From a candidate division Zixibacteria bacterium HGW-Zixibacteria-1 (GTDB lineage Bacteria; Zixibacteria; MSB-5A5; GN15; PGXB01), in contig PGXB01000018.1 in NCBI GenBank assembly GCA_002838945.1, positions 1 to 63,858 on the forward strand: a DNA stretch of 63,858 nt, read 5' to 3'. The first letter of the stretch is position 1. Each line of letters starts with the position of its first letter. Made by a program: the position numbers and the translations under genes. The notes below the pieces were generated by a model. The model was not told where the DNA came from. It was given only the letters and a program-made list of their open reading frames with translations, and did no database searches. Shown here piece by piece: positions 6,051-19,432 of the stretch.

Positions 6051-6075
6051 GGAGCCGCCGAAGCGGCTCCTTTTT
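6051..6075 (+). terminator. Intrinsic terminator after the C39-like gene
   Basis: GGAGCCGC (6051-6058), loop CGAA, GCGGCTCC (6063-6070), then TTTTT. It separates the plus-strand gene from the convergent capsid cluster, whose last stop codon is at 6074-6076. Confidence 0.88.
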
Positions 6076-6412
6076 ATTTACGCGAGAGTGCGGCCGAAAC
6101 GGCTCGGCCGGCCACTTCGGTATCAATGCCGCATACTTCAATGACCTTGTCGACGGCCTCATCAAAATAGACGACCCATTCTTTATCGGGATACTTCCTG
6201 ACCAGATCGTCCGTTATCTCATCGGCGATGCAGGAAATATAGCGGGCATAGCGCCTTCGCTTTTCCACCACCAGAAAGGGAACCAGATATTTGCGGGTCA
6301 GCCAGACGACCAACGCCATGAATACAGCCCCGATGCCACCCGCGATGCCCAATATGTTGTTCAACATAAAATCAATAAATGAAACAAGAATGAATGTGAT
6401 CAGCGGAAACAT
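6074..6412 (-). CDS. Small membrane protein, last gene of the capsid cluster
   Basis: A 112-residue protein with two hydrophobic stretches near the N terminus (about residues 2-15 and 20-38) followed by a basic turn (RKY, EKRRRYAR) and a soluble acidic helical tail of about 60 residues. It starts at ATG 6412 after a strong AAAGGAGG. The position at the end of a virion operon and the two membrane segments would fit a holin-like protein, but the long soluble tail is not typical and no endolysin gene lies beside it. It could instead anchor or organise particles at the membrane. I do not recognise the family. Confidence 0.75.
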   Translation of the reverse strand: MFPLITFILVSFIDFMLNNILGIAGGIGAVFMALVVWLTRKYLVPFLVVEKRRRYARYISCIADEITDDLVRKYPDKEWVVYFDEAVDKVIEVCGIDTEVAGRAVSAALSRK

Positions 6413-6430: not shown

Positions 6431-7873
6431 TTACCAAGTCATCAGCCAGCCTGGCTGATTGGGTACGGTTACTCTCTCCCGAAATATTGTCCCGTCGGTA
6501 CGAGACACGGTTATCTCGTAGCGGGTGGTATCAGGATCCAGCATATTATTGGGGATCAGGTCCAGATAGAAATAACCATTTTCATTCGAAGTGGTCTTTA
6601 CTTTAAATGGCGAAATCAGACCTGCCCCGGCCCTGGTCACGCCGGCGGGAAGCCAGGCGGTTATTTCGGCGCCCGCCTGAGGATTGCCGCTGATACCATA
6701 TATAAAACCATACAGGCGGCACAAGGATGGCATCGACGGCTCACCGGGATCAAACCGGTATCCGTAAACCGTATCAGTGCCCGGCCCCGAAATAACAAGT
6801 GTATCGAAATTGTCGAATATATAACCGGGAGAAAAACAGACCGCCAGCAGGCTGTCGGCGTCCAGATTGAATCCGGCATAACCGTCATTGCCTGATTTTC
6901 CAAGAGCTATCAAGGCCGATTGCTCCAAATTGCGTATGGCAATATTGACTCCGGGAATCACCTGATTTATTATGCTGTCTAAAATAATAACATCATAAGA
7001 GTACAGTCCGCTGCTAATACCTATCTGGCCCCGATAAGCCAGCGAGTCCTCGAGGACTCGATTGGCCACGGTATCCGCCGCCGTCCCCCCTATTTCGACG
7101 GCGTGGACTCTCGGATAGGAATCCTCCCGAACACTCATGGAATCAATCAAAACAGTATAATAGGTGCCTTGGAATTTTGAGGCGGTCAGCGCCGCATCGT
7201 GTATTTTATTGGCATCAATAGCCGCAATACCTATTTCCGTGGCATCCAGAGTTCCGATGACATTATCCAGATCGACGGCGGCATATCCGCCGGATGAAAC
7301 CGCCAGTTTTCTTCCGGCCGTAACAGGCTGCAGCACCCATTGCGACTGGCTTTCGAGACTGTCGATTATTTTCGAGAGAGAATCCAGAACATTGTTAACG
7401 CTGTCCACCACCCGGCGCGCCCAGGCAGCCGAATCAAGGCTGTATTCCAAAGGAGAATTTACTACCTGGAAAAAACCGCCGGTTGATGTTATCAGATCGG
7501 CATCGCTGTTATCATCGATCATCAAAATATATGAATAAAGCCCGTTGACCGGATTGGCCCCATCCAGCACCGAAACCCTCTCGACAAATACGTATGATTT
7601 CCCGCCATCAAAATCCTCCCAGTCACAACTTTTTATCCGGGTATCATTGTACGCCATAGAGTCGCGATAGGATATTGCTCCACCGGGATAAAAAATGGCC
7701 AGATATACGGAATCTCCCGACATCAGGTCAACCGGATTCCCTAGAGAATCGAGCGGTGCAAAAGGTATCGCCAGCGTGTCCCGATATGGCCCGTTGCTGA
7801 CAAGACCGTAGCTCCATGCCGTGCAAAATGAAACAATTGATAAAGCCAGACTCAACAAAATCGCTTTTCGCAT
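6431..7873 (-). CDS. Exported fibre-like protein of the capsid cluster
   Basis: A 480-residue protein starting at ATG 7873 behind GGAGGGGGG. The N terminus (MRKAILLSLALSIVSFCTAW) is a Sec signal peptide, which is unusual for a virion gene. An N-terminal beta domain is followed by a short helical stretch (RVVDSVNNVLDSLSKIIDSL, about 155-174) that could trimerise. Then come SSGGYAAVDLDNV and LDATEIGIAAIDANKIHD, which resemble tail-fibre or baseplate segments. The C terminus is a carboxypeptidase-regulatory-like beta domain (LYGFIYGISGNPQAGAEITA) ending in a short beta tail. The likely role is receptor binding or the outer surface of the particle, by position and composition only. Confidence 0.72.
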   Translation of the reverse strand: MRKAILLSLALSIVSFCTAWSYGLVSNGPYRDTLAIPFAPLDSLGNPVDLMSGDSVYLAIFYPGGAISYRDSMAYNDTRIKSCDWEDFDGGKSYVFVERVSVLDGANPVNGLYSYILMIDDNSDADLITSTGGFFQVVNSPLEYSLDSAAWARRVVDSVNNVLDSLSKIIDSLESQSQWVLQPVTAGRKLAVSSGGYAAVDLDNVIGTLDATEIGIAAIDANKIHDAALTASKFQGTYYTVLIDSMSVREDSYPRVHAVEIGGTAADTVANRVLEDSLAYRGQIGISSGLYSYDVIILDSIINQVIPGVNIAIRNLEQSALIALGKSGNDGYAGFNLDADSLLAVCFSPGYIFDNFDTLVISGPGTDTVYGYRFDPGEPSMPSLCRLYGFIYGISGNPQAGAEITAWLPAGVTRAGAGLISPFKVKTTSNENGYFYLDLIPNNMLDPDTTRYEITVSRTDGTIFRERVTVPNQPGWLMTW

Positions 7874-7891: not shown

Positions 7892-9208
7892 TTAGTAAAG
7901 TGATATGTCCATATATTTATCTTCACGGCCGGATACCTCGCTGCCGCCAAGTATTTTCCGCCTTCGGGCCGGCATTTGAGAACCACCGGATTCGACCGTA
8001 TACTCGATATAGGTGCTGAATCCGTCATTTTTGCTGAAATATCCGGACAGACTGTCGGGTACATTCCAGCCGGTCAAGTCGAAATATTTTACATCGCCCC
8101 AACCGGTCGCATCGGCATGTACTCGAAGTTTGTTGTTAGTGGAATTATAGCCCTGGAATGAAGCAATATATGTTATTCCCGGATTCAGGTGCCCGGCCAT
8201 GGGACACTCTTCCCAGTGGGCCGAAGTATCGGTTATATCAACGGTGGCAGAAGAGGCATGATATGTCGAGCTGCCAAGATCAGTACCCTTTGTATATGAA
8301 TGGACCTTGATCTGCAATACTCCCTCAATATCACCGTTTACATCGCAATAAACATATCCGCCGGTAATTTCACCCTCCCCGGTTTCCGCCTGACCGACAT
8401 TCCATAGCACATTATGTCGATAGTTGACAATGGTCAGCCCCCAGGCCCCGACGGAGGTCTTGCCGAATGTCGGATCGACGACGATCGGATATGCGGCATT
8501 TTCAAGAAAACTTTCCGGGATATCAATCGTCATAAGGCCGGCCAGCGTGTCAATATTCATCCAACACCGGGCCGAGTCGCCCCGGCTGTCATAAATAAGC
8601 GGCCGTTTAATATGAAAGGCCTTACCGGTGGCATAGCTCTCATAGAGAGTATCGCACCCGTTTATGTATCTCCGGTTGTGGCGCCGATTGGAGTGATATA
8701 CCGCATAAGAACCTTGTGCCCAGTCCGGGCCGGTGACCGAGAAATAATCATCAAAAAAAGCCGAATCCTGATAGTAAAACGTCAGGTTTTTCGAGTCTAT
8801 TTCAAATTTCAGGACATTCGATTTCGGGACAGTGTCAAACCGCATTTCCCATTCCAGACTGCCGTCATCAAGCAAATACAGGCTAATGGCCAGATCGCTG
8901 TCGGCAATGCAATCAATTTGGGGATTATTATTTATTGTTTTCATCGAAGCCACGGCGACTGATCCAAAACCTGTCGGGATCAGATCAACAATAAAGCAGC
9001 ACTCTTTACCCCAGGCATTAATCCCCAGGGTCGGCTGAAAGTTTTCGGCCAGCGAATCGCCGACAACAAAAGTTAAAGAACGGTCTTTGCGATTAGTCAT
9101 ATGACTTCCCCGATCAACGTCATAAACAGCATACATGGAATTTCCACTGCTGCCTGCACTTGCCCCGGTGACAAGACCGACAAATAATATCAACAGCGCT
9201 TCAAGCAT
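7892..9208 (-). CDS. Exported beta-rich protein of the capsid cluster
   Basis: I place the start at ATG 9208 (438 residues) because GGGAGGG lies a few bases upstream and the protein then begins with a signal peptide (MLEALLILFVGLVTGASA). A longer frame to 9313 adds a basic, non-export N terminus. The body is beta-rich. ENAAYPIVVDPTFG (about residues 247-260) resembles a motif common in phage structural and RHS-like surface proteins. It lies 25 bases after the preceding gene and 18 before the next. Together with 6431-7873 it forms a pair of exported proteins inside a capsid operon. No enzyme motif is seen. Confidence 0.72.
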   Translation of the reverse strand: MLEALLILFVGLVTGASAGSSGNSMYAVYDVDRGSHMTNRKDRSLTFVVGDSLAENFQPTLGINAWGKECCFIVDLIPTGFGSVAVASMKTINNNPQIDCIADSDLAISLYLLDDGSLEWEMRFDTVPKSNVLKFEIDSKNLTFYYQDSAFFDDYFSVTGPDWAQGSYAVYHSNRRHNRRYINGCDTLYESYATGKAFHIKRPLIYDSRGDSARCWMNIDTLAGLMTIDIPESFLENAAYPIVVDPTFGKTSVGAWGLTIVNYRHNVLWNVGQAETGEGEITGGYVYCDVNGDIEGVLQIKVHSYTKGTDLGSSTYHASSATVDITDTSAHWEECPMAGHLNPGITYIASFQGYNSTNNKLRVHADATGWGDVKYFDLTGWNVPDSLSGYFSKNDGFSTYIEYTVESGGSQMPARRRKILGGSEVSGREDKYMDISLY

Positions 9209-9233
9209 AGTACCCTCCCGGACTTGGTATGAA

Positions 9234-9488
9234 TTATGACTCTTTTTTGGTTCTCTTCTGTTTTTTCTTTGCCGGCTTCGAGCCGCCGGGCAGTGTTTCC
9301 CGGCGAAGTTCATCGATCATATCCCAGAATTTTTTCTCCGCCTTTCCCGTAACCGATAGTTTGTTTTTCATGTCAATCACCTTTAAAAGATCTCCGATTT
9401 TAACGGATTCGTAATTCAATCCCTTATGTATCTTCTGTTTCAAATCCTCGAGCATCTCAAGGTCGGTAAGATTCTTCTCTTCTTCCAT
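9234..9488 (-). CDS. Small lysine-rich helical protein
   Basis: An 84-residue protein, mostly helical (NLTDLEMLEDLKQKIHKG and KKFWDMIDELRRE), ending in a strongly basic tail (KPAKKKQKRTKKES) that could bind nucleic acid. The start at ATG 9488 lies 4 bases after the stop of the 9493-9879 gene, and the ribosome site is weak, so translation is probably coupled. Size and basic tail are compatible with a DNA-binding packaging factor such as a small terminase, but no helix-turn-helix is evident. Function unknown. Confidence 0.7.
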   Translation of the reverse strand: MEEEKNLTDLEMLEDLKQKIHKGLNYESVKIGDLLKVIDMKNKLSVTGKAEKKFWDMIDELRRETLPGGSKPAKKKQKRTKKES

Positions 9489-9492
9489 GAGA

Positions 9493-9879
9493 TTATGAAG
9501 CCTTCAAAACATGTCCCGTCTCGTATATGAAGAAATCGACACTGACAGGTCCCGGTGCGGCCGGATCGCGCGCGATCCTGAAACCGGTGTTCGATTCATC
9601 ACCGGCCAGATACGCCTGATAGGGAGATCTGGGCCGAATCAATACACGCGGCGATTCAATCGACGATGGCAGGGGGTTCCCGTAGTGATCAATGAGTTCC
9701 TCGAATCGGATATCCTGGGCGGCTCCTCCGATTGTCGATCGGCCGAACATTAACCGGCTTGTACTTTCAACGGTCTCCACGGCGAGATAATGCATTTCGG
9801 CATCGTCAGCCGTTCCCCAGATGACAACATCGCGCACTACCCACATTCTTCGGCCCAAAAGAAAATTTATGGATTGCAT
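9493..9879 (-). CDS. Small beta-rich protein of the capsid cluster
   Basis: A 128-residue protein starting at ATG 9879 behind a perfect AAGGAGG (7-base spacing). Predicted all-beta, with no signal peptide or membrane segment. It sits where connector or tail-completion genes usually lie, 11 bases after the connector-like gene. I do not recognise the family. It could be a head completion or stopper protein by position. Confidence 0.7.
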   Translation of the reverse strand: MQSINFLLGRRMWVVRDVVIWGTADDAEMHYLAVETVESTSRLMFGRSTIGGAAQDIRFEELIDHYGNPLPSSIESPRVLIRPRSPYQAYLAGDESNTGFRIARDPAAPGPVSVDFFIYETGHVLKAS

Positions 9880-9890
9880 GGCGCCTCCTT

Positions 9891-10703
9891 TTATGAATGA
9901 ACAGGTCGGCTTAATCGGCCGGCCTGAGCTCTGAAAGATTTGAGAAGACTATCGTAATCGCTTCGATAGCTTTCTGCAATGACCAGCCATGCCGATGCCG
10001 CCTGGTGACCATTTGCAGCAGTAATCAGATCTCCGGCGGCAGCCATCCGGCAGACCAGCGAGACGGCAAAATATGTCGCCGCCGCCTGAAGTGCGGCATC
10101 GGCTCCAAACTGACGATGCGGATCGACCTGCTTTTCGACTATGGCATTAGCCTCGGAAACCGCCTCATTTATCAATTCATCATCGATTCGGCTCATGGAT
10201 AGTTCATAATCGACCAGAACTGTTTGACCGGCCTGAATATTGCCGCCGCCAAGCCGTCGTATCATGCCCGCCGTGTAATCAATGCTGTAGTCGCTCCCTT
10301 CGATATATATAGAGTAATGATAGTACCACACGGCAACCCGGCCATCGACCGGGATAGCGCCGCCATCAATCGATTTAATAATACCGTTTGTGGAATCAAC
10401 CGAGTAATCGATGTTCTCGCGGTAAATCTTACCCAGGGAGCTGTTAGAGGCCACCGTCACCGAATTGGACGTCAGGTGTTCGTTACTCAACGTCACTGTG
10501 CCGTTTACTACCATGACATCTTCGAATACCGGTGAATAGTCTTTAATTGCCTTGACCACAATTGAGTTCTCGACAAGGTTGCGCCCCGGAAGATTGATCC
10601 ATTCCTGGTCGGAAAAAACCACAGGGTGGTCCAGACGCAGCCCGGTGGCGCTCTCATCGAAACTTATATGCCTTCTGACCAGATCAGCGTTTGTGTATGA
10701 CAT
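9891..10703 (-). CDS. Head-completion/connector-like protein with two beta modules
   Basis: A 270-residue protein. The N terminus (MSYTNADLVRRHI) and the helical C terminus (DDELINEAVSEANAIVEKQV, then ALQAAATYFAVSLVCRMAAA) look like phage head-tail connector proteins of the gp6 kind. Between them lie two similar beta modules: IYRENIDYSVDSTNGIIKSI to VAVWYYHY, and IYIEGSDYSIDYTAGMIRRL to VLVDYEL. The start at ATG 10703 abuts the stop of the preceding gene (10704) and follows GGAG. The fold assignment is a pattern judgement. Confidence 0.68.
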   Translation of the reverse strand: MSYTNADLVRRHISFDESATGLRLDHPVVFSDQEWINLPGRNLVENSIVVKAIKDYSPVFEDVMVVNGTVTLSNEHLTSNSVTVASNSSLGKIYRENIDYSVDSTNGIIKSIDGGAIPVDGRVAVWYYHYSIYIEGSDYSIDYTAGMIRRLGGGNIQAGQTVLVDYELSMSRIDDELINEAVSEANAIVEKQVDPHRQFGADAALQAAATYFAVSLVCRMAAAGDLITAANGHQAASAWLVIAESYRSDYDSLLKSFRAQAGRLSRPVHS

Positions 10704-12119
10704 TTAGCACTCCATTAATATAAAGGCCCCGACCTTCGCGACAGCACTTACATGAGTCCCGACAGGGCCGGTGTTAAATTCGGAGGTGACGACAGCTCTG
10801 ATCCAGAAAAGGTAATTGTCATTAAGCCTATTTTTCTGCCAGTTATTCGGTACTGAGATCATGTCATCCCACAGCATATAATCCTTCTCAATATCTTCAA
10901 GGTTAAAGCTGCCCCCCTCCGGCTCGAAACTTGCCCAGTCCTGCCCATTAAAGTACTGCCAGCTTATATTGCCCCCGCTTCCGGGAACCGACAGAATTAT
11001 ATGCAGGAAGTGAAACCTGTTTTGCATTCCCAGGTACAACGCGTCACCGGGCATCTTAAGTAGAGTCGAGGTTCCTGAATAAAACATATCACCGGCAACA
11101 CTATCCGCCGCCTGCGCCGTGAGATCCTGGTAAGAGGCAAAAGTTGAACTGTAGCAGATTGCTTCATCGAATGGTCGGGAAGATTCAATCATTTCCAGCG
11201 GCTCCGTGAAACTGCTTCCCTGACGACGGCAGCACAGAACCCTCCGTTGATTATCGATAAATTCCGACAGGTACACTACGTAGGGATTATTGTTGAAATA
11301 GCGCAGCTGCGGAAAATCGCCGCCGCTTTCATCAATAACGGCAACACCGCTCCACTTGCTTCCGTCAAATTCGCGGAAAGACAAGGTACCGCTATCGAAG
11401 GTAACACCGACCCGATTATCGGCCGAAATTGCCGTATCGAAATTATCATCAAATCCGGAGCCGGTGGCAATGTCCTCCTCATCTTCCCAAAGCTCCAGAA
11501 AAATATGTTTTCTGCGACAGGACAGACGGGTACCATCGATTGTGTAAATGAGGTATGTGTACGATCCCATTGACTGGACCTTCGACCAGGCCGATGAGAC
11601 TCCGGATGCGATTTCGTATCCATAACTTGACGGCCCGTTGCCCCAGTTTTCCCCCCGGTCAATGGAGTGCTTGGCATTGATATAGTACTGTCCAGACGAG
11701 ATCCTCGTCCATGACACCCAGAGCTTATCCGGCTGTTGAAGTTCAATTGACGGATTCAGATTATTGTCGGAGTCATAAATGGTGTGGACATCACTAACCG
11801 CCCATAGTCCATATATAAAAGTCAATTTGCGGCATACCAGATTATTGTTGATCGCAAGGGTGTATGCCAGGTACATATTATTCTCATCATCCATAACGGC
11901 GTCAAAAGGGTTGTCGGCACAGTCATTTAAGATGTTGATTGGCGCTACCCAGGTGGTATAAGGATAATCGGCATAGGTTAACTTGATCTCGGACGGCGAG
12001 GTCTGCATCAGAATAACGATTCTTCCGGCAAACTGACCGGATTGGACCTTGAAGACCTTCTTGCCGGGACTGAGACCGGCGCCATTTATGGCCGAACTGT
12101 TGACCAGATGATTTTGCAT
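10704..12119 (-). CDS. Asp-box beta-propeller-like virion protein
   Basis: I choose ATG 12119 (471 residues) because AAGGAG lies 5 bases upstream; the frame opens 5 codons earlier. The first about 330 residues are repeated beta-strand units typical of a sialidase-like propeller, with one clear Asp-box (SIDRGENWG, about residue 158). The C-terminal third has ISWQYFNGQDWASFEP and PNNWQKNRLNDNYLFWIRA, a pattern seen in phage baseplate and adhesin proteins. No catalytic sialidase residues can be assigned, so a binding role (glycan or cell surface) is more likely. It is the first gene after the major capsid protein, separated by a hairpin. Confidence 0.65.
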   Translation of the reverse strand: MQNHLVNSSAINGAGLSPGKKVFKVQSGQFAGRIVILMQTSPSEIKLTYADYPYTTWVAPINILNDCADNPFDAVMDDENNMYLAYTLAINNNLVCRKLTFIYGLWAVSDVHTIYDSDNNLNPSIELQQPDKLWVSWTRISSGQYYINAKHSIDRGENWGNGPSSYGYEIASGVSSAWSKVQSMGSYTYLIYTIDGTRLSCRRKHIFLELWEDEEDIATGSGFDDNFDTAISADNRVGVTFDSGTLSFREFDGSKWSGVAVIDESGGDFPQLRYFNNNPYVVYLSEFIDNQRRVLCCRRQGSSFTEPLEMIESSRPFDEAICYSSTFASYQDLTAQAADSVAGDMFYSGTSTLLKMPGDALYLGMQNRFHFLHIILSVPGSGGNISWQYFNGQDWASFEPEGGSFNLEDIEKDYMLWDDMISVPNNWQKNRLNDNYLFWIRAVVTSEFNTGPVGTHVSAVAKVGAFILMEC

Positions 12120-12134
12120 TGTACTCCTTTCCAT

Positions 12135-12179: not shown

Positions 12180-13283
12180 CTATTCAAAAACAGTGTCAAG
12201 AATCATCGATGCTTCCCTGATGACCTTGGCGTAGGCGACCGATTCCGATATGACCGCCTCTTCGAAACGCTGCTCGATGATTTTATCGTACTCCACCATC
12301 AACGGCTGGGTGATAACCTCCTCGACCCCGAAACGTGAGTCCAATCCGATAATGAGATCTTCCGGGACCTCGTCACACCTCATCAGCGTCGCACCCAGCG
12401 GGCTGAATAGCTCGCCCTGTCCCTGGAACCGGTAACCGGCCATCGGATCCCTGAATTCATCCAGCGTCAGAATTGTCTTTAGCTTGCTGATGTGACAGAT
12501 GATTGTATTCATCTCAAACGGATCAAATTCCGCCCAGAGCGAAATAAGATCCTCGTACGTCAGCGAGCCTGAGACAGCGGCATTGACGGTCGCGGCCGGA
12601 TTGGCATTCCCGTCCCCGTTAAGAATGCAATTGATCACAAACGCGATTTTATCGGTTTGGAGTTTGAAACCGATGTACCACAGCAGAATCCGGAACTGTG
12701 CCGTGGTCCGGTAGCGAAGCGACTTATAGCTTGCCTTCAAACCCAACCCGTATTCCGGGACATTGATCGAATGCGTCTGCTCAGTCACATGGATCTGCGG
12801 AATTTCGGCCCCCTCGCCGATCGGCCGAAGCGAAAACTTGTCGGTCGCCGAAGTATCCACATGAAACGGCGTGTAGCGATTATTGCTGATGGTCGTTGAG
12901 TTTGCCAGAAGCGAAGCCAGCTCCGGCCGCATCGCCTGACCCTTTTTAATCTCCCGAAGAATAAATTCCGGCATCAGGGCCGGAGCCTTTTGATAGAACT
13001 GATCGACCAGCGTGGGATTTTTTCCGCCCAGTTTGATTCCGGCCAGAGCCAGTTGCCGCTCGAAGGCATCAAGCGGTGACCCGGGCAATGAAGGATCATA
13101 TTCGGCCGTTTCCAGGAGCTCGCTGAGTGTCATTCCTTTGGTCTCGGCCTCCAGATAAGTCTCCCGGTCAACCCGTATTTCCGAAGAACGGCCGAAATCT
13201 ATCGGGCCGCTCGGTTCCCGCCCGGCCAGGTCCAGTTTTTCCTGATCCGTCAACTCGGTTTTGAGAAATTTATTAAAATCCAC
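12180..13283 (-). CDS. Major capsid protein, HK97-fold type
   Basis: Predicted shell protein of the particle, 367 residues, starting at GTG 13283 behind GGAGGGG. The first about 130 residues are charged and helical like a scaffold (delta) domain. The rest shows HK97-type features: KFSLRPIGEGAEIPQIHV (E-loop/N-arm region), a long spine-like helix around ILLWYIGFKLQTDKIAFVIN, and the C-terminal strand set IIGLDSRFGVEEVITQPLMV. It follows the decoration gene by 12 bases, the usual protease-decoration-capsid order. Confidence 0.82.
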   Translation of the reverse strand: MDFNKFLKTELTDQEKLDLAGREPSGPIDFGRSSEIRVDRETYLEAETKGMTLSELLETAEYDPSLPGSPLDAFERQLALAGIKLGGKNPTLVDQFYQKAPALMPEFILREIKKGQAMRPELASLLANSTTISNNRYTPFHVDTSATDKFSLRPIGEGAEIPQIHVTEQTHSINVPEYGLGLKASYKSLRYRTTAQFRILLWYIGFKLQTDKIAFVINCILNGDGNANPAATVNAAVSGSLTYEDLISLWAEFDPFEMNTIICHISKLKTILTLDEFRDPMAGYRFQGQGELFSPLGATLMRCDEVPEDLIIGLDSRFGVEEVITQPLMVEYDKIIEQRFEEAVISESVAYAKVIREASMILDTVFE

Positions 13284-13295
13284 TTTTCCCCTCCT

Positions 13296-13718
13296 TTAGT
13301 TAAGATAAAGCGTGCAGTCGGTCGTACCATTCACCTCCAGGACCGTCCCGCGGGCAAGATTGCCACCGGCCGGATCGCCGGCTCCCAGAGCCGGAGCCTG
13401 TTTAACGGTTCCGCCAACACCTCCGACAACCCTGTTGCCGACCACCGGGTAGGTCGCCACAATCGGCAGCCGACAGATACCGCCGATTTGTACCGTGGCC
13501 AGACGTTCGCCGTTGTCACGATCCGTCAGGGTCAACGCGATTAGTTTGCCGAGCAGCCGGGCGCCGTCGGTACAGGGCCCTGTTTCATAATTGCCCGTCA
13601 GCATAACCGCTTTGCCGATATCGGCGTCCTTCAGGTCATCGATCCCGCCGGTCTGAGCAATTTTAAATGTCGCCAGGACCGGTGCAATGGCCTCAAGATT
13701 TTGTTCTCTTATTGACAT
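13296..13718 (-). CDS. Capsid decoration/stabilisation protein
   Basis: 140 residues from ATG 13718, which sits 5 bases after AAGGAG; a GTG two codons upstream is the alternative. A small beta protein with IAQTGGIDDLKDADIGKAV, LTGNYETGPC and a Gly/Ala-rich C terminus, resembling head decoration proteins encoded directly upstream of HK97-type capsid genes. Expected to sit on the capsid exterior. The function is inferred from position and composition. Confidence 0.65.
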   Translation of the reverse strand: MSIREQNLEAIAPVLATFKIAQTGGIDDLKDADIGKAVMLTGNYETGPCTDGARLLGKLIALTLTDRDNGERLATVQIGGICRLPIVATYPVVGNRVVGGVGGTVKQAPALGAGDPAGGNLARGTVLEVNGTTDCTLYLN

Positions 13719-13796
13719 GTTCACTCCTTTACATTTATTCTTTCAGTTTATAGAGACGGGTATATTCCCACTTTGCCTCCGGGCATCAGCCCTCGG

Positions 13797-14210
13797 TTAA
13801 ATCTTATGCTCCATCCAGTTTCCTGCCGGCGCCCGTCTTGATGACATTCCCGCATACTTGAAACTGGCCGGAAAATTTTTCCTAAAACGTGAGGCCGTCC
13901 GGCGGTACAGCAATATCAGTTCTTTGGCCTGGATTCCTTCAAGGGATTCCGAAAGTTGAGAAATTATTCGCATATCATCGTCCTCCGGATGGCATACAAC
14001 CAGCGCCTTGAGCATTCCCATTATCCGCATTCGGTAATCATCTTTTATCAAATGCAATTCCTCGGCGGGATTTTCGCCGCCGGCGTCGCCGTCCCATAAT
14101 TGAGTCAACAGACTCGTCAGTTTATCGAAATCGATCAGCTCGATGGCGCTTTTCTCCAGGCACCTGCATGCTTCCTTGAGCATGGTCTTATCTTCCTTCG
14201 TTATTTTCAC
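13797..14210 (-). CDS. Small helical protein between protease and decoration genes
   Basis: 137 residues, almost entirely helical and charged, starting at GTG 14210, two bases after the stop of the protease-ligase gene; GGGGAA overlaps that stop. An internal ATG at codon 10 with GAAGGAAG upstream is a possible alternative start. The position between protease and capsid is where a scaffold often lies, but the sequence gives no family match that I recognise. Confidence 0.65.
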   Translation of the reverse strand: MKITKEDKTMLKEACRCLEKSAIELIDFDKLTSLLTQLWDGDAGGENPAEELHLIKDDYRMRIMGMLKALVVCHPEDDDMRIISQLSESLEGIQAKELILLYRRTASRFRKNFPASFKYAGMSSRRAPAGNWMEHKI

Positions 14211-14212
14211 TT

Positions 14213-16042
14213 TTATTCCCCTTGTTCTGAAGAACCCTTATTGGCATTAGTTTTATAAAAAACAAACTGCCTGTTACCATTCTTCACGGCCGGCCTTAAT
14301 AAATAATCTCCATTCAGCGGACCCTGCATGGAGAATCTGAGGGCATCGCCGTCTTCTGCAAGATCAACTACCGAACCTTCACCAATGAGCTTTTCCGGAT
14401 GTGGATCATGATATTCCACTCGTTCAGCAAAAAACCAGCGTCCCACATCGAGCAGTGTACTATCATAGCGATTAAATTTGTAGGCGGTTGATTTTGATTT
14501 ATCATTCAAAATCAGGATGACATCGTTATCGAGCCGGAATAGCGAATATTCGTCACTTTGCTGCCTTACCGCGATATTGTCGAGCAGCAGTCCGATATCA
14601 TCCGGCTGCCCGTCGCAGGCGGAAAGACCCATAATTCGTGGCCGTGCCAATTCAACCTTATCCTGCAATGTCCTGATAGAACAAACTTCCAGTTCAACGA
14701 TACTTCCCTCGTTCCATTCGCTGCCGGCATAAACACCATCGGATATATCCGCCGCCTTTCCATCAGCCATGCAGGCTAAGGTATATCGATAACCGGCACC
14801 CGCTTTCTCCCGGCTCTTGACCGTGGCTGAAAGACGCCTGTGATTGGTGAACAAATATTTGTCGGATGAATTTGATTCGAAGATTTCGACACCGTACCTG
14901 GTGGCACATCGTCCAAAGCCCTGAGATATATCTTCACCTTTCAGAATTAGAGTCGGAATCAGCATTTCCGACTGGTCCCGGAAGAGTTCCTCAAGCTTCT
15001 TTCGCCTCTCGCATCCGGCTGCATCATTGAAATTTTCACCACCCTGTGCAATCAGATCGATTATCTTCAAATCCAGGCGCCGTACAGCCGATTTTTTTCC
15101 GTTCAGATATCGAACGACCTCATCGACCGTCTGTCTTTCTTTTCCGCAGCAGCCGATCAATCGGCCTTCAACCACAAAATCATTGCCGGGCAGTTTCAGT
15201 TCTGAAATAAACTTGCGAAGGATATTCGATTCGATTACGTTTCCGTCGGCGCCATGCGGCTGAACCTTCCCATTTTTCCTGACCAGAAACATTCTTATTG
15301 CTTCATAGGCGGGCATCATAAGGTAAGAGGCATTTTTATCAAGACGGTCGAACGACCAGAGCCGCCGAGATGGCCTGAATAAATCCTCCGGCTTCTCTTC
15401 AGATGAAATCCCCTCCTTTTCTCCATCGAAAAACAGCCGGTCCGTTATAGAAGTATCCCTTACCGATCCGCGATAGACCAGCGACGTCTCCAGCACCTTC
15501 AATATCTGCCGGTAATTGAAACAGGCCTGTTTTGTTTGTCCGCCGTCGGTTTCATAATTCTCCAATGGACGGTGCCGGCACTGTCTTATATCCGATCCGC
15601 ATATCGAACACTCTGGAAGATTAAAGATAAAGCTGATGGAGCATTCCTTGTAGATCCCGGCATCGATATTTTTCCGTAAATCTTCACCCTTGTCGCCCTT
15701 CTTCAGCCAATAGAAGTAAACTTTCACCCAGTTGGCGCCGTCACGCACGACAGCTTCGGCGTGGAAATTCCGGGCAATGGGAAGGCTGTCTTTGCGATGC
15801 CCGATCAGAACCGGGCTGTCGATCAACAGCTCTATCAGCCGAGCATGTTCGTCGGCCGGAAATCTTCCCCCATGGCTGTTGACCTGATCGGAGACGATAT
15901 ACATCGCCCTGATGTAAACATCATCCGCGGTCAATCTGGCGGGCGGCCTGATATTGCCATTGATCTTATCTATCAGGTCCGGCGGTATTTCGCGGTCCGT
16001 TTCGACCAGCGAGGCAGTCAATTTACCCAAAAGTTCTTTCAT
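14213..16042 (-). CDS. Capsid maturation protease fused to a ligase-like (nucleotidyltransferase + OB) domain lacking its catalytic lysine
   Basis: 609 residues from ATG 16042, placed by GGGAGG 4 bases upstream; the frame extends to a TTG at 16075. Residues about 70-165 look like a phage prohead protease: LLIGHRKDSLP with H82, ECSISF with candidate serines S135/S137, then a Cys/His knot (ECSICGSDIRQCRH). Residues about 225-475 follow the order of an ATP-dependent DNA ligase: PAYEAIR (244-250) sits where ligases have PKYDGxR, then NDFVVEGRL (motif III), LDLKIIDLIAQGG (IIIa), YGVEIFES (IV) and an OB-like tail ending LARPRIMGL. The nucleophilic Lys is replaced by A245, so the domain is probably a non-catalytic DNA or nucleotide binder. 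Residues 480-609 are unassigned. Confidence 0.7.
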   Translation of the reverse strand: MKELLGKLTASLVETDREIPPDLIDKINGNIRPPARLTADDVYIRAMYIVSDQVNSHGGRFPADEHARLIELLIDSPVLIGHRKDSLPIARNFHAEAVVRDGANWVKVYFYWLKKGDKGEDLRKNIDAGIYKECSISFIFNLPECSICGSDIRQCRHRPLENYETDGGQTKQACFNYRQILKVLETSLVYRGSVRDTSITDRLFFDGEKEGISSEEKPEDLFRPSRRLWSFDRLDKNASYLMMPAYEAIRMFLVRKNGKVQPHGADGNVIESNILRKFISELKLPGNDFVVEGRLIGCCGKERQTVDEVVRYLNGKKSAVRRLDLKIIDLIAQGGENFNDAAGCERRKKLEELFRDQSEMLIPTLILKGEDISQGFGRCATRYGVEIFESNSSDKYLFTNHRRLSATVKSREKAGAGYRYTLACMADGKAADISDGVYAGSEWNEGSIVELEVCSIRTLQDKVELARPRIMGLSACDGQPDDIGLLLDNIAVRQQSDEYSLFRLDNDVILILNDKSKSTAYKFNRYDSTLLDVGRWFFAERVEYHDPHPEKLIGEGSVVDLAEDGDALRFSMQGPLNGDYLLRPAVKNGNRQFVFYKTNANKGSSEQGE

Positions 16043-16281
16043 AAAACCTCCCTCATAAGACCCCCCGATGACCAAATTACCATCAAATTGATGCAGAAAT
16101 TGTTCACGCTATTTTATGCAAACGCTTTCATAGAAGAGACATGATTTCTACACCCAATAACGCGTGTTTTCAATAGCCATTGCCGGACAATGACTTACCG
16201 CGAGCCCAACAATCTTTCGGGACGGCACGACAGTTGCGTGGAATGTATATGGAAATTGGATTACTTTTTTTGAGGTTTATT

Positions 16282-16401
16282 ATGGTTGTCTATCGAGCAA
16301 AAAAAAGAAGCATGTTCAAATGGATCTTGGCGGCCATACTGTTTATTTCCGCACTGTGCGTCACCTTCAGTGACGTTTATGGTGCCGTCTCTTCTATTTA
16401 A
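16282..16401 (+). CDS. Possible small membrane/exported peptide, antisense to the capsid cluster
   Basis: A 39-residue frame on the strand opposite to the cluster. ATG 16282 follows GAGGT (16272-16276). The translation has a basic start (YRAKKRS) and one hydrophobic helix (MFKWILAAILFISALCVTF), like a small toxin or a signal-peptide remnant. An ATG at the MFK codon is an alternative start. It is followed by three hairpins, the last resembling a terminator. No homology is recognised; it may be chance. Confidence 0.35.
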   Translation: MVVYRAKKRSMFKWILAAILFISALCVTFSDVYGAVSSI

Positions 16402-16465: not shown

Positions 16466-16485
16466 CGCGATATCACTTAATACGG

Positions 16486-16514
16486 CCTGCATCCGAGTAA
16501 ATCGGATGCAGGTT
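16486..16514 (+). terminator. Inverted repeat 3 of 3, terminator-like
   Basis: CCTGCATCCGA (16486-16496), loop GTAAA, TCGGATGCAGG (16502-16512), followed by TTAATTTTAT. It could end the small plus-strand frame. On the minus strand it lies just after the terminase stop and would be a stem without a T tract. Confidence 0.6.
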
Positions 16515-16522
16515 AATTTTAT

Positions 16523-17824
16523 CTACACTATTCCCAATCGCGGCTTTATTATCGGACTGTCCGGCTTGTACAGCGGCCAGAGAGAAAGAGCCAGGGCCAT
16601 GACGCCGTCAAAAGTATTATTATCGTCCCACCTGGCCTCCCGAAGCTCATCTTCCAGCGACCAGATGCGCCCATTCTCATCAGGCATTTCCCAGCGGTGA
16701 TATTTAACCCGCTGCATACTGTGAAACAGCTCCAGATTGCTCAGCAATTCGCCTTTTGACTTATGCGAAAATATAAAGGAGGTCGGATTCAGATCCTGCA
16801 ACTGCGAAACGACCACGTCTCCCAATCCGGTAGCGTCTATGACAAGCTGACCGGGGAATTGTCTTTGCTGCATGCGAATTTTCTCAAGAATAATGTTCCA
16901 GTCCCACTTTTTTATTCTGGTCAGAGAAACTACGGCGGCAATACCGTCTTTTACGCCAATCGTAATACCGACCGTCGCCGTCTTCTTTCGCGCCAGATCC
17001 CAGCCCGAAATAAACCTGACCGCGCGATCTTCCCGTGCCAGCGGAACGGTTTCATCCTTCACATTGATTAAAGCCGCATCGATATATTTGCCCGGAATGA
17101 TCTCGCCGCCGGAATCGACGAACTGCCCCATGATATTTTGAGCCACCCGCTTGTCACTGAGATATTTTAGCTGAAGATCCAAATAGTCATGCGAGATGTA
17201 TTCATTTTCCCGCGTATCGCCGAACTGCACGTAGCCGTCTTCTGTGCGATCTCTCAATTCCAGCATCTTCCGGTAAAACCAATTCCGACCGTTGGGTGTC
17301 GACACCAGGTCGAGTTTGCCCATCCGGTCGGCCAGCCTCATCTTGATCACCTCATTGACGACATATTCGGCTTCCGGATCGAAAGCAATCTCGTCGAAAA
17401 TAAAATAATCATAGTCGTTCCCGAGCAGGTATTCCCCCCGCCGCTGAGTTGAACGCGCCTCGATTACCGCGCCATTGCCCATTATGAGACGGGGATACGG
17501 CGTCGACACCATTTTTTTTATCAAACCCTTGATGCGACAGGATGTCTCCAGAATTCGCAAAACCGTTTTGAATATTATACCGGCTTGATCCTGGGTGATG
17601 CTGGCTGTAACCACATGGTATTTGCCGGAGCGATCATACCGCAAATCCCTGACCCTGAACAGGGCATGATGTATTATCTTGATCGCCTCGGCATATGATT
17701 TCCCCCAGCGATTGCCGGTGACCAGAAGATTCTCGCTCCGATTGCTTTCGGAAAGCCATTTTATCTGGCCCGGGTGCGGCTTAATATCCAGAAAATTCCC
17801 GGCAAAAAAAGGGATGTCGTACAT
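16523..17824 (-). CDS. Phage large terminase subunit (TerL)
   Basis: DNA-packaging motor: an N-terminal ATPase and a C-terminal RNase H-like nuclease, 433 residues. Walker A is GNRWGKS (37-43) and Walker B with the catalytic Glu is FIFDE (142-146). The coupling motif STPNGRNW follows at about 177-184. The nuclease acidic residues are D277 (SGWDLAR), D331 (LVIDATG) and D407 (NTFDGVMALAL). All are intact, so packaging activity is plausible. ATG 17824 lies 35 bases after the portal stop and has only a weak ribosome site. No small terminase gene is recognised upstream. Confidence 0.93.
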   Translation of the reverse strand: MYDIPFFAGNFLDIKPHPGQIKWLSESNRSENLLVTGNRWGKSYAEAIKIIHHALFRVRDLRYDRSGKYHVVTASITQDQAGIIFKTVLRILETSCRIKGLIKKMVSTPYPRLIMGNGAVIEARSTQRRGEYLLGNDYDYFIFDEIAFDPEAEYVVNEVIKMRLADRMGKLDLVSTPNGRNWFYRKMLELRDRTEDGYVQFGDTRENEYISHDYLDLQLKYLSDKRVAQNIMGQFVDSGGEIIPGKYIDAALINVKDETVPLAREDRAVRFISGWDLARKKTATVGITIGVKDGIAAVVSLTRIKKWDWNIILEKIRMQQRQFPGQLVIDATGLGDVVVSQLQDLNPTSFIFSHKSKGELLSNLELFHSMQRVKYHRWEMPDENGRIWSLEDELREARWDDNNTFDGVMALALSLWPLYKPDSPIIKPRLGIV

Positions 17825-17859: not shown

Positions 17860-19119
17860 CTATATCAGACCACCTGCTTTGGCAACGGCATCATCTTTCG
17901 TGATCAAGCCGGCTGCGTATAGTCTCAGAAGATTATCGATCCTGCTCTTGTCGATATCGGCCCGATCCGACGCCAGATATGAAATCGTGTTGTCAAAACG
18001 ATACCGGCACCTGCAGGCAAATCCTTTCAGGGCCAGTTCAATATTACCCATCCATTCCATGAATCTGGCCGTCTGGCGCTGGACCGAAATCACCTGCCTC
18101 ATCACCAGGTCATATTTGAACTGCGCCCAGTTATGAGTCGTCCCGTAACTGTAGCCCAGCATGAACGGCGAGAGATTCGTCCCGGCACAAATCTCCTCGA
18201 CCATCGCCCGATGATTCAAAAACCAGGAATGTGTTGCACCCTGCATGTTCCGCGGGCCGACATAGTCGATCTTGATATTATCCCAGGTAACCGGATTGTC
18301 TTCGGGACGACAATCCCGAATCATCGAGACCGTTTCGTCGAAATACTCATTGACGCGCTCGGCGTAAGCATCATCCGATTCCCCCGACATCTTCTCGGGT
18401 GGTGCAATTTGAACATGCAGCCGGTGATAGCCGGCATTATGTGTCGCCAGCCTCATGTCATCCACTAACTGCTGTTCGATATAAGCCACGAACGGGATAG
18501 CGCCAAGCATCGAACGCCCCAGTCCGCTGCCGGTATCAGAATTTAAGCCAAGATAATAGAAATCTTCACTATCCAGCCTTACCTCACCTTTGTCGGTCTG
18601 ATAAACCAGGACACCCTCGCCGATTTGATCGGATAAAGTAATGTCTGATGGGTCAATCGGCTGAAAATGATCGATGCCGCTCATATCGGGTGCAATCAAT
18701 AGAAATCCCGCAAAAGCCCCGTCGGTAAAAAGAGCATTGAACAAGAGCGGCATAAATGACTCGATTCCGGCCGTTTTTTGAAAATGGTGCGGATAAGCTC
18801 GAAGGCACATATTATCCAGGCACACAATCGCGCCCGCGCGCATCTGGTTAGATACCGAATCAATAATCTCATATCCGCCCGGAGCGGATGACAATCTGCT
18901 CCAGGTCCATATGCAGGAATTCAAAACCGGGATCGTGTCCCGGAGAAACCGATACAAGCCAATCCTGAAGCTGTTGCCGACATTTCCCTGACTCCGCCAT
19001 ACAAATCTCTTGTCCCTGTGGTCCCCTGACCCCACAAATGGAAATAAATTTTCCGTCTGTGAGCCGATTTTGACCATTTCATTACTTCTCAAGAAACTTT
19101 TCCTTCTTCTATTAATCAT
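17860..19119 (-). CDS. Phage portal protein
   Basis: Ring-forming protein of the capsid vertex through which DNA is packaged. I choose ATG 19119 (419 residues) because AGGAGG lies 7 bases upstream; the frame opens 15 codons earlier without a ribosome site. The portal signature is the region MVEEICAGTNLSPFMLGYSY followed by WAQFKYDLVMRQVISVQRQT, in which a core helix runs through the tunnel. Upstream, SDITLSDQ and VYQTDKGEVRLDSEDFYYLG are the usual wing strands. First gene of the cluster. Confidence 0.85.
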   Translation of the reverse strand: MINRRRKSFLRSNEMVKIGSQTENLFPFVGSGDHRDKRFVWRSQGNVGNSFRIGLYRFLRDTIPVLNSCIWTWSRLSSAPGGYEIIDSVSNQMRAGAIVCLDNMCLRAYPHHFQKTAGIESFMPLLFNALFTDGAFAGFLLIAPDMSGIDHFQPIDPSDITLSDQIGEGVLVYQTDKGEVRLDSEDFYYLGLNSDTGSGLGRSMLGAIPFVAYIEQQLVDDMRLATHNAGYHRLHVQIAPPEKMSGESDDAYAERVNEYFDETVSMIRDCRPEDNPVTWDNIKIDYVGPRNMQGATHSWFLNHRAMVEEICAGTNLSPFMLGYSYGTTHNWAQFKYDLVMRQVISVQRQTARFMEWMGNIELALKGFACRCRYRFDNTISYLASDRADIDKSRIDNLLRLYAAGLITKDDAVAKAGGLI

Positions 19120-19432
19120 ATTATTACCTCCTCTATTAATGGGCCGGTCACGAATTAACAACAAATTGGTGGTGTTTTTGCTTTGGAATCATGGCCGAAT
19201 CACTAAAGAAGATATTCATAATAAGGCGCAACTTGATTTACTACAATTGATTACAAATATTGTTCGAATCACTTATAGCACTGCAAGTTATTATGATTTT
19301 GGAAACAACCCTTTTGATCACGATTATAATTGGAGCTTGGTCAACTATTCATCCGGCAATGGCGAATTACCGTCACCCGGTTATCCATGTGATATTTTTT
19401 TCGATTTTGACTGAAGTGACGCCCAATACGCC

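Follow-up and report, generated by a model that had tools for sequence, protein, structure and literature searches.

A compact 13-kb cluster of 12 genes, all on the minus strand, lies amid housekeeping genes in the window, by which we mean the whole 63,858-nucleotide stretch of candidate division Zixibacteria bacterium HGW-Zixibacteria-1 that was analyzed. The portal protein (17860..19164) is identified by a match to PHROG 3753 portal (E=7e-25) and lies upstream of TerL throughout the phylum. The terminase large subunit TerL (16523..17824) exhibits Walker A/B motifs and nuclease Asp residues that do not vary across all 45 homologues aligned. A terminator-like inverted repeat of the GGCCTGCATCC/GGATGCAGGCC type is found at ~16480-16520, just past the TerL stop, and the ensuing protease-ligase gene may therefore have its own transcription start. 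Between these two genes lies a conserved small membrane/PEP-CTERM-like ORF (16180-16401, plus strand); about 40 loci of the order have its core (16285-16401; MVVYRAKKRSMFKWILAAILFISALCVTFSDVYGAVSSI) at the equivalent site, and the longer versions found in other families end with a PEP-CTERM-like anchor. This opposite-strand ORF may be associated with the cluster, as a surface component or as a regulator.

Downstream of the protease-ligase gene, and separating it from the decoration gene at a conserved position, a 137-residue protein (g137; 13797..14210) did not return any match in family searches and is a possible scaffold. It is followed by a virion structural/decoration-like protein of ~140 residues (13296..13724; PHROG 4588, E=3e-6), conserved phylum-wide, and by the HK97-type major capsid protein (MCP; 12180..13283), which reports a strong hit with PHROG 3922 major head protein (E=5e-62) and another with TIGR01554 below its cut-off (E=5e-4). 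The next ORF (10704..12134) encodes a β-propeller (AlphaFold pLDDT 92.8), whose top-ranking PDB match is a chain from the phage LME-1 portal-tail complex, ahead of sialidase and lectin propellers; judging by its model, it is a candidate short-tail nozzle or receptor-binding part. The Ig-like/tail-related protein encoded at 9891..10703, for which PHROG 807 is found in 29 of 32 homologues, is a candidate head-tail connector, its match to PHROG 5938 head-tail connector reaching only E=0.23. A protein of ~123-128 residues (9493..9879) is conserved across loci, and it is followed by a variable 473-residue protein (7892..9313), the position of which is conserved in part of the phylum, and by a 480-residue protein (6431..7873) with a weak tail-protein match (PHROG 1204, E=0.003). 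Both of these last two carry signal-peptide-like segments, near the N-terminus in the former and at the N-terminus in the latter, which is unusual for virion parts, and may be exported to the envelope. Lastly, a small membrane protein (6074..6412) is weakly assigned as holin-like by alignment with its homologues, 6 of 18 of which match PHROG 6918 holin (best E=0.0012), the window's own copy returning no match. Neither a tail tube, a tape measure, a small terminase nor an endolysin was recognized in the cluster; together, the LME-1-like propeller and the absence of a recognizable tape-measure or tube gene suggest, but do not prove, a short-tailed particle.

The protease-ligase gene itself (14213..16042, minus strand, ATG at 16042) encodes 609 residues, in which sequence, homologues and the AlphaFold fold delineate a prohead protease (residues ~1-200), a pseudo-DNA-ligase made up of a nucleotidyltransferase (NTase) domain (residues ~226-400) and an OB domain (residues ~400-480), and a degenerate remnant of a LigD-type phosphoesterase (residues ~490-600). 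The N-terminal prohead protease with a Cys/His knot proposed in the initial annotation is borne out by a PHROG 16951 match covering residues 34-216 (E=4e-15), by residues H82 and S135, which are invariant in 91 of 91 homologues (the numbering of this alignment begins ~10 codons further upstream than the 609-residue ORF), and by a C145/C148/C155/H157 (C-C-C-H) knuckle retained in 89-90 of the 91. Fold comparison with viral models matches the predicted structure of this domain to a protein from Siphoviridae sp. ctL7J9 named 'Prohead serine protease' (TMt 0.67, rmsd 2.8), while a profile search of the PDB restricted to this domain gave no match. Homologues are located in the head operons of phages; the one from Enterococcus phage fHoEfm07 is annotated as a head maturation protease and sits just upstream of the major head protein; it is this phage homologue alone, and not the window protein, that links the family to TIGR01543 proheadase_HK97 (E=1e-7, below the curated cut-off). 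With its conserved His/Ser fold and adjoining capsid genes, the N-terminal half is an HK97-type prohead protease. It shares its fold, its His and Ser residues, and its place between the portal/terminase and capsid genes with the HK97-family proteases (phrog_80, TIGR01543). It differs from that family in possessing the C-C-C-H knuckle and a (pseudo)ligase extension, from which it is separated by a linker modelled with low confidence (residues 192-215); its phage relatives in Jenst and fHoEfm07 (loci L064 and L065) carry, as judged by eye, a probable coiled-coil scaffold at the ligase position.

Regarding the C-terminal half, a Pfam scan of the window protein gave no match, and Pfam reports a single weak ligase match among 38 members; with the ligase half as query, phmmer and profile searches against the PDB rank DNA ligases first, although weakly (E 0.03-0.27). 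The AlphaFold model has a pLDDT of about 95 across residues 226-450, and its top 50 PDB fold matches are DNA ligases without exception (E about 1e-9 to 1e-7). The assignment thus relies on this fold together with those homologues whose motifs are intact, and the half following the protease, already described as ligase-like from the sequence, is predicted to adopt the nucleotidyltransferase plus OB fold of ATP-dependent DNA ligases. Motif I reads P244-A245-Y246-E247-A248-I249-R250 and, since the preceding Pro (P244) is invariant, A245 occupies the position of the nucleophilic Lys, with E247 and A248 following, exactly as first read. The catalytic Lys of motif I (KxDG) is therefore missing from the window protein, and is found only in two other families, f13 and f14. 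A245 is invariant inside the window's family. Outside it, the position is occupied by A, H, L, Y, R, F, S, V, D or C, and never by K within the window's order. The loss of the Lys hence stands, whereas the notion of A245 as a conserved signature is right in part, as it holds within the family and the residue drifts beyond it. Motifs III to V of the window-type ligase are also degraded, the alignments of this degenerate region being uncertain outside motif I. P244 and a G-K-x-R loop (G300, K301 and R303) vary little or not at all within the order. The last ~110 residues (~490-600) align to the LigD-type phosphoesterase domain and lack its His/Asp/Arg residues; neither this domain nor the phylum-wide phage-like cluster had been mentioned in the initial annotation. 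As far as its motifs indicate, the ligase of the window lineage has lost its adenylation site, i.e., it is a pseudo-ligase. A search of open-access papers found no published description of such a protease-pseudoligase fusion, in agreement with the novelty first claimed for it.

The ligase part takes several forms among the homologues. The motif I Lys is absent from 54 of the 60 ligase-bearing homologues (ANMV-1 virus being left out of this count) and present in six, all of which belong to f13 and f14 (G103, G104 and G106-G109). As the Lys-bearing families are the minority, the window protein is typical, and not an outlier among homologues that keep the Lys. The f13/f14 proteins retain motifs III, IIIa, IV and V, PF01068 is detected in the members scanned (E 1e-27 to 1e-31), and their C-terminal domain resembles the LigD phosphoesterase and keeps most of its His/Asp/Arg motif, with PF13298 remaining below cut-off. 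In the five f13/f14 genomes checked, the fused protein is the sole PF01068 ligase found, and its motifs suggest that it is active. At loci L083 and L084, a segment of ~80 residues ahead of the ligase bears a polymerase-beta-type NTase-like motif, as judged by eye; L082 is devoid of it. Reduction is seen elsewhere: family f4 has lost the OB domain, f6 and f12 have lost the ligase and retain the phosphoesterase-like tail, and f15-f17 and f19 have lost almost everything beyond the protease. In the ligase-domain tree, the branching of the dead versions mostly follows the families. In-frame stops or frame breaks occur in the protease-ligase of the single genomes G037 (L044 6011-7555) and G027, and in the propeller gene of G069 (L078 7337-8741), and reflect either local decay or sequencing error.

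The scanned flanking and nearby genes of the window are cellular, encoding radical SAM, TPR, OMP decarboxylase, SecA and Lon proteins, and no integrase or phage replication gene was found among them; the GC content and codon use of the cluster match those of the flanking genes. The protein was detected by a single-sequence search in 54 of the 60 nearest genomes and by a profile search in 121 of 132 Zixibacteria genomes, including 76 of the 78 high-quality ones. There is essentially one locus per genome, the extra rows being mostly split matches or contig breaks; most of these genomes are fragmented assemblies, and several are single contigs. The gene order is the same across the phylum. Within the window's order, 12 loci share both chromosomal neighbours and 16 share one, several of the latter being truncated by the end of a contig or by the limits of the stretch compared. 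Of 25 splits, the RpoB tree has 17 in common with a tree built from five cluster genes, where shuffling gave at most 3 (28 genomes from 18 families; approximate FastTree trees), and the cluster and RpoB distances are correlated (Mantel r 0.80, with none of 2000 permutations as high), the former being about twice the latter. Among the closest pairs, in f5 and g19 (dS about 0.5 or less), dN/dS ranges from 0.01 to 0.15 in the MCP and from 0.08 to 0.13 in the protease; the dead ligase part has values of 0.18-0.25, and the ligase-derived part evolves about 2-3 times faster than the protease. These values indicate that purifying selection also acts on the dead ligase part. This faster evolution, the loss of the OB domain in f4 and the absence of the ligase from several families make the ligase-derived part dispensable. 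The genomic data further indicate that the cluster is inherited vertically and co-diversifies with its host. Congruence with RpoB, low dN/dS and the invariant TerL residues fit selection on a working packaging machine, and not prophage decay. The initial view of the protease-ligase as a phage protein is accordingly replaced: it belongs to a vertically inherited, single-copy, gene transfer agent (GTA)-like cluster.

Beyond Zixibacteria, 7 of 254 sampled genomes matched. In a small second phylum (that of G185), 5 of 6 genomes carry homologues, including ligase-bearing ones without the Lys, the position being occupied by L in G185 and, by eye, by H in G389 and Q in G387. These loci (L166-L168 and L138, in G389, G387, G388 and G185) encode protease-NTase-pseudoligase proteins of 731-826 residues as well as a ligase-deleted version of 422 residues. 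In a third phylum (G286/G138; L169-L175), 35 of 39 genomes carry a protease-only homologue, and the gene order differs at several loci (MCP, g270, portal, protease). The co-diversification with RpoB is a result for Zixibacteria. As for viruses, neither the single protein nor the f13/f14 alignment retrieved relatives from viral contigs, while the scan with A1 returned three distant phage contigs sharing only the protease, as well as one that is Zixibacteria-like. The locus L134 (IMGVR_UViG_3300027896_005586), catalogued as viral in IMG/VR, is an f5-like, Zixibacteria-type cluster with a dockerin-like neighbour, and indicates that GTA-like loci can enter virus databases. In the fold comparison with viral models, A0A516LT18 (827 residues) ranks first (E=1.4e-19 over 580 columns) and may be a protease-ligase protein of a free virus. 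The DNA ligase of the archaeal virus ANMV-1 (KP703175) covers 90% of the f14 ligase query (E=1e-18) and, by eye, resembles f13/f14 in its arrangement of NTase-like, ligase, OB and phosphoesterase-like domains; unlike the fused proteins, it is a stand-alone protein of 866 residues devoid of a protease domain. The ANMV-1 ligase gene (L133 3200-5800) adjoins another whose product apparently has a MuF-type C-terminus (HEHCRC). This enzyme is possibly a head-module ligase in a free virus.

The fusion protein shares with LigD and the ATP-dependent DNA ligases the NTase plus OB fold and the motif order, and f13/f14 also keep the catalytic Lys and the phosphoesterase-like domain. It differs from them in the window lineage by the loss of the Lys and other catalytic residues, by its fusion with a capsid protease, and by the absence of Ku from all 20 genomes searched. 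A classical NHEJ role is unlikely, and was rejected, for want of Ku in these genomes. GTAs are defined by structural proteins derived from caudoviricetes, full endogenization, and vertical inheritance with host co-diversification, as well as by the packaging of mostly random host DNA, a head too small for their own genome, and delivery to other cells (PMC9662315). Functional GTAs have been described in some Alphaproteobacteria, a spirochete, a sulfate reducer and a methanogen, and the BhGTA cluster spans 16.3 kb (PMC9662315). With RcGTA, BaGTA and BhGTA (viriforms), the Zixibacteria cluster has in common head genes of caudoviricete origin (portal, TerL, protease and MCP), a compact endogenized arrangement on the chromosome (a single cluster with host-like GC content and codon use), vertical inheritance and co-diversification with the host, a likeness seen in gene content and inheritance. 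Unlike the tailed RcGTA and BhGTA, it has a nozzle-like propeller and no recognizable long tail, and it differs from all named GTAs by its host phylum, by its protease-ligase fusion and by being known here from its genes alone. No report of GTAs in Zixibacteria was found in open-access literature, which is weak evidence of absence. The cluster shows the computable part of the definition, and looks like an undescribed GTA.

We consider it probable that the window protein is the maturation protease of a vertically inherited, phage-derived GTA-like cluster, in which the shell of a dead ligase is kept as a non-catalytic part. Particles would form as the terminase and portal pack cellular DNA, mostly at random, into an HK97-type head, the protease would mature the procapsid and the holin-like protein would let the particles out for transfer to other cells; ComEC, present in 18 of 18 genomes, offers a possible, merely permissive route for DNA uptake. 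The C-terminal half would originate from a repair protein of NTase-ligase-3'-phosphoesterase type that became joined to the protease. Prohead proteases of HK97-type phages act inside the procapsid, and the ligase, being fused to the C-terminus of such a protease, would be carried into the head. In f13/f14, an active ligase would seal nicks in the packaged DNA or treat its ends, either within the head or once delivered, while in the window lineage the ligase shell would most likely assist the protease by binding DNA or acting as a scaffold. A capsid-bound pseudo-ligase that recognizes DNA ends or nicks, as initially suggested, is possible.

An alternative that accepts the GTA or GTA-like cluster holds that the ligase half of the window protein is a decaying passenger, fused a single time as an active capsid-borne enzyme, deprived of its use in most lineages and now eroding beside a protease that is retained. 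The free drift of the catalytic residues, the faster evolution of the ligase part, the missing OB domain of f4, the missing ligase of f12 and the near-complete truncation beyond the protease in f15-f17 and f19 make this rival serious. We nevertheless judge it unlikely, as the dead part is still constrained (dN/dS 0.18-0.25), its reading frame is open in nearly all genomes across a phylum-scale time, its fold is predicted with high confidence, and P244, G300, K301 and R303 hardly vary within the order. The near-invariance of K301 and R303 despite the loss of the canonical Lys could also be taken to mean that another residue, such as K301 of the G-K-x-R loop, supports a different nucleotide-transfer activity. 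However, motifs III to V are degraded too, and the loop does not look like a substitute, since it also occurs beside the canonical Lys in f14 and partly in f13, which renders this activity very improbable.

Other readings concern the particle as a whole. The absence of recognized long-tail genes, the propeller and the apparently exported proteins would suit a domesticated particle other than a GTA, i.e., a killing particle, a protein-cargo carrier or an anti-phage capsid. Such an identity is doubtful given that the terminase ATPase and nuclease residues, the portal and the maturation protease are kept phylum-wide, for which DNA packaging is the simplest explanation; to our knowledge, tailocins and encapsulins have no packaging terminase, portal or maturation protease. 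An ordinary prophage or remnant that repeatedly re-enters the same site would account for the phage-type genes, for the distant free-phage relatives of the portal, terminase and protease, and for the classification of L134 as viral. It is hardly tenable, and largely refuted, in view of the one copy per genome in 121 of 132 genomes, the host-congruent tree, the host-like composition, and the lack of integration or replication genes nearby.

We therefore return to the GTA-like cluster with a retained ligase shell. Its broader form, to which we give an even chance, is that a GTA is ancestral to Zixibacteria, with near-universal relatives in at least two other phyla, and that a repair ligase brought into the head through the protease fusion is active in two families and a non-catalytic capsid component elsewhere. 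If this is true, GTA-like exchange would probably be much older and wider than thought, given a cluster fixed across a candidate phylum and relatives elsewhere. The fusion would represent a possible route for a DNA-repair enzyme into a capsid, of which intact and dead natural versions can be compared.
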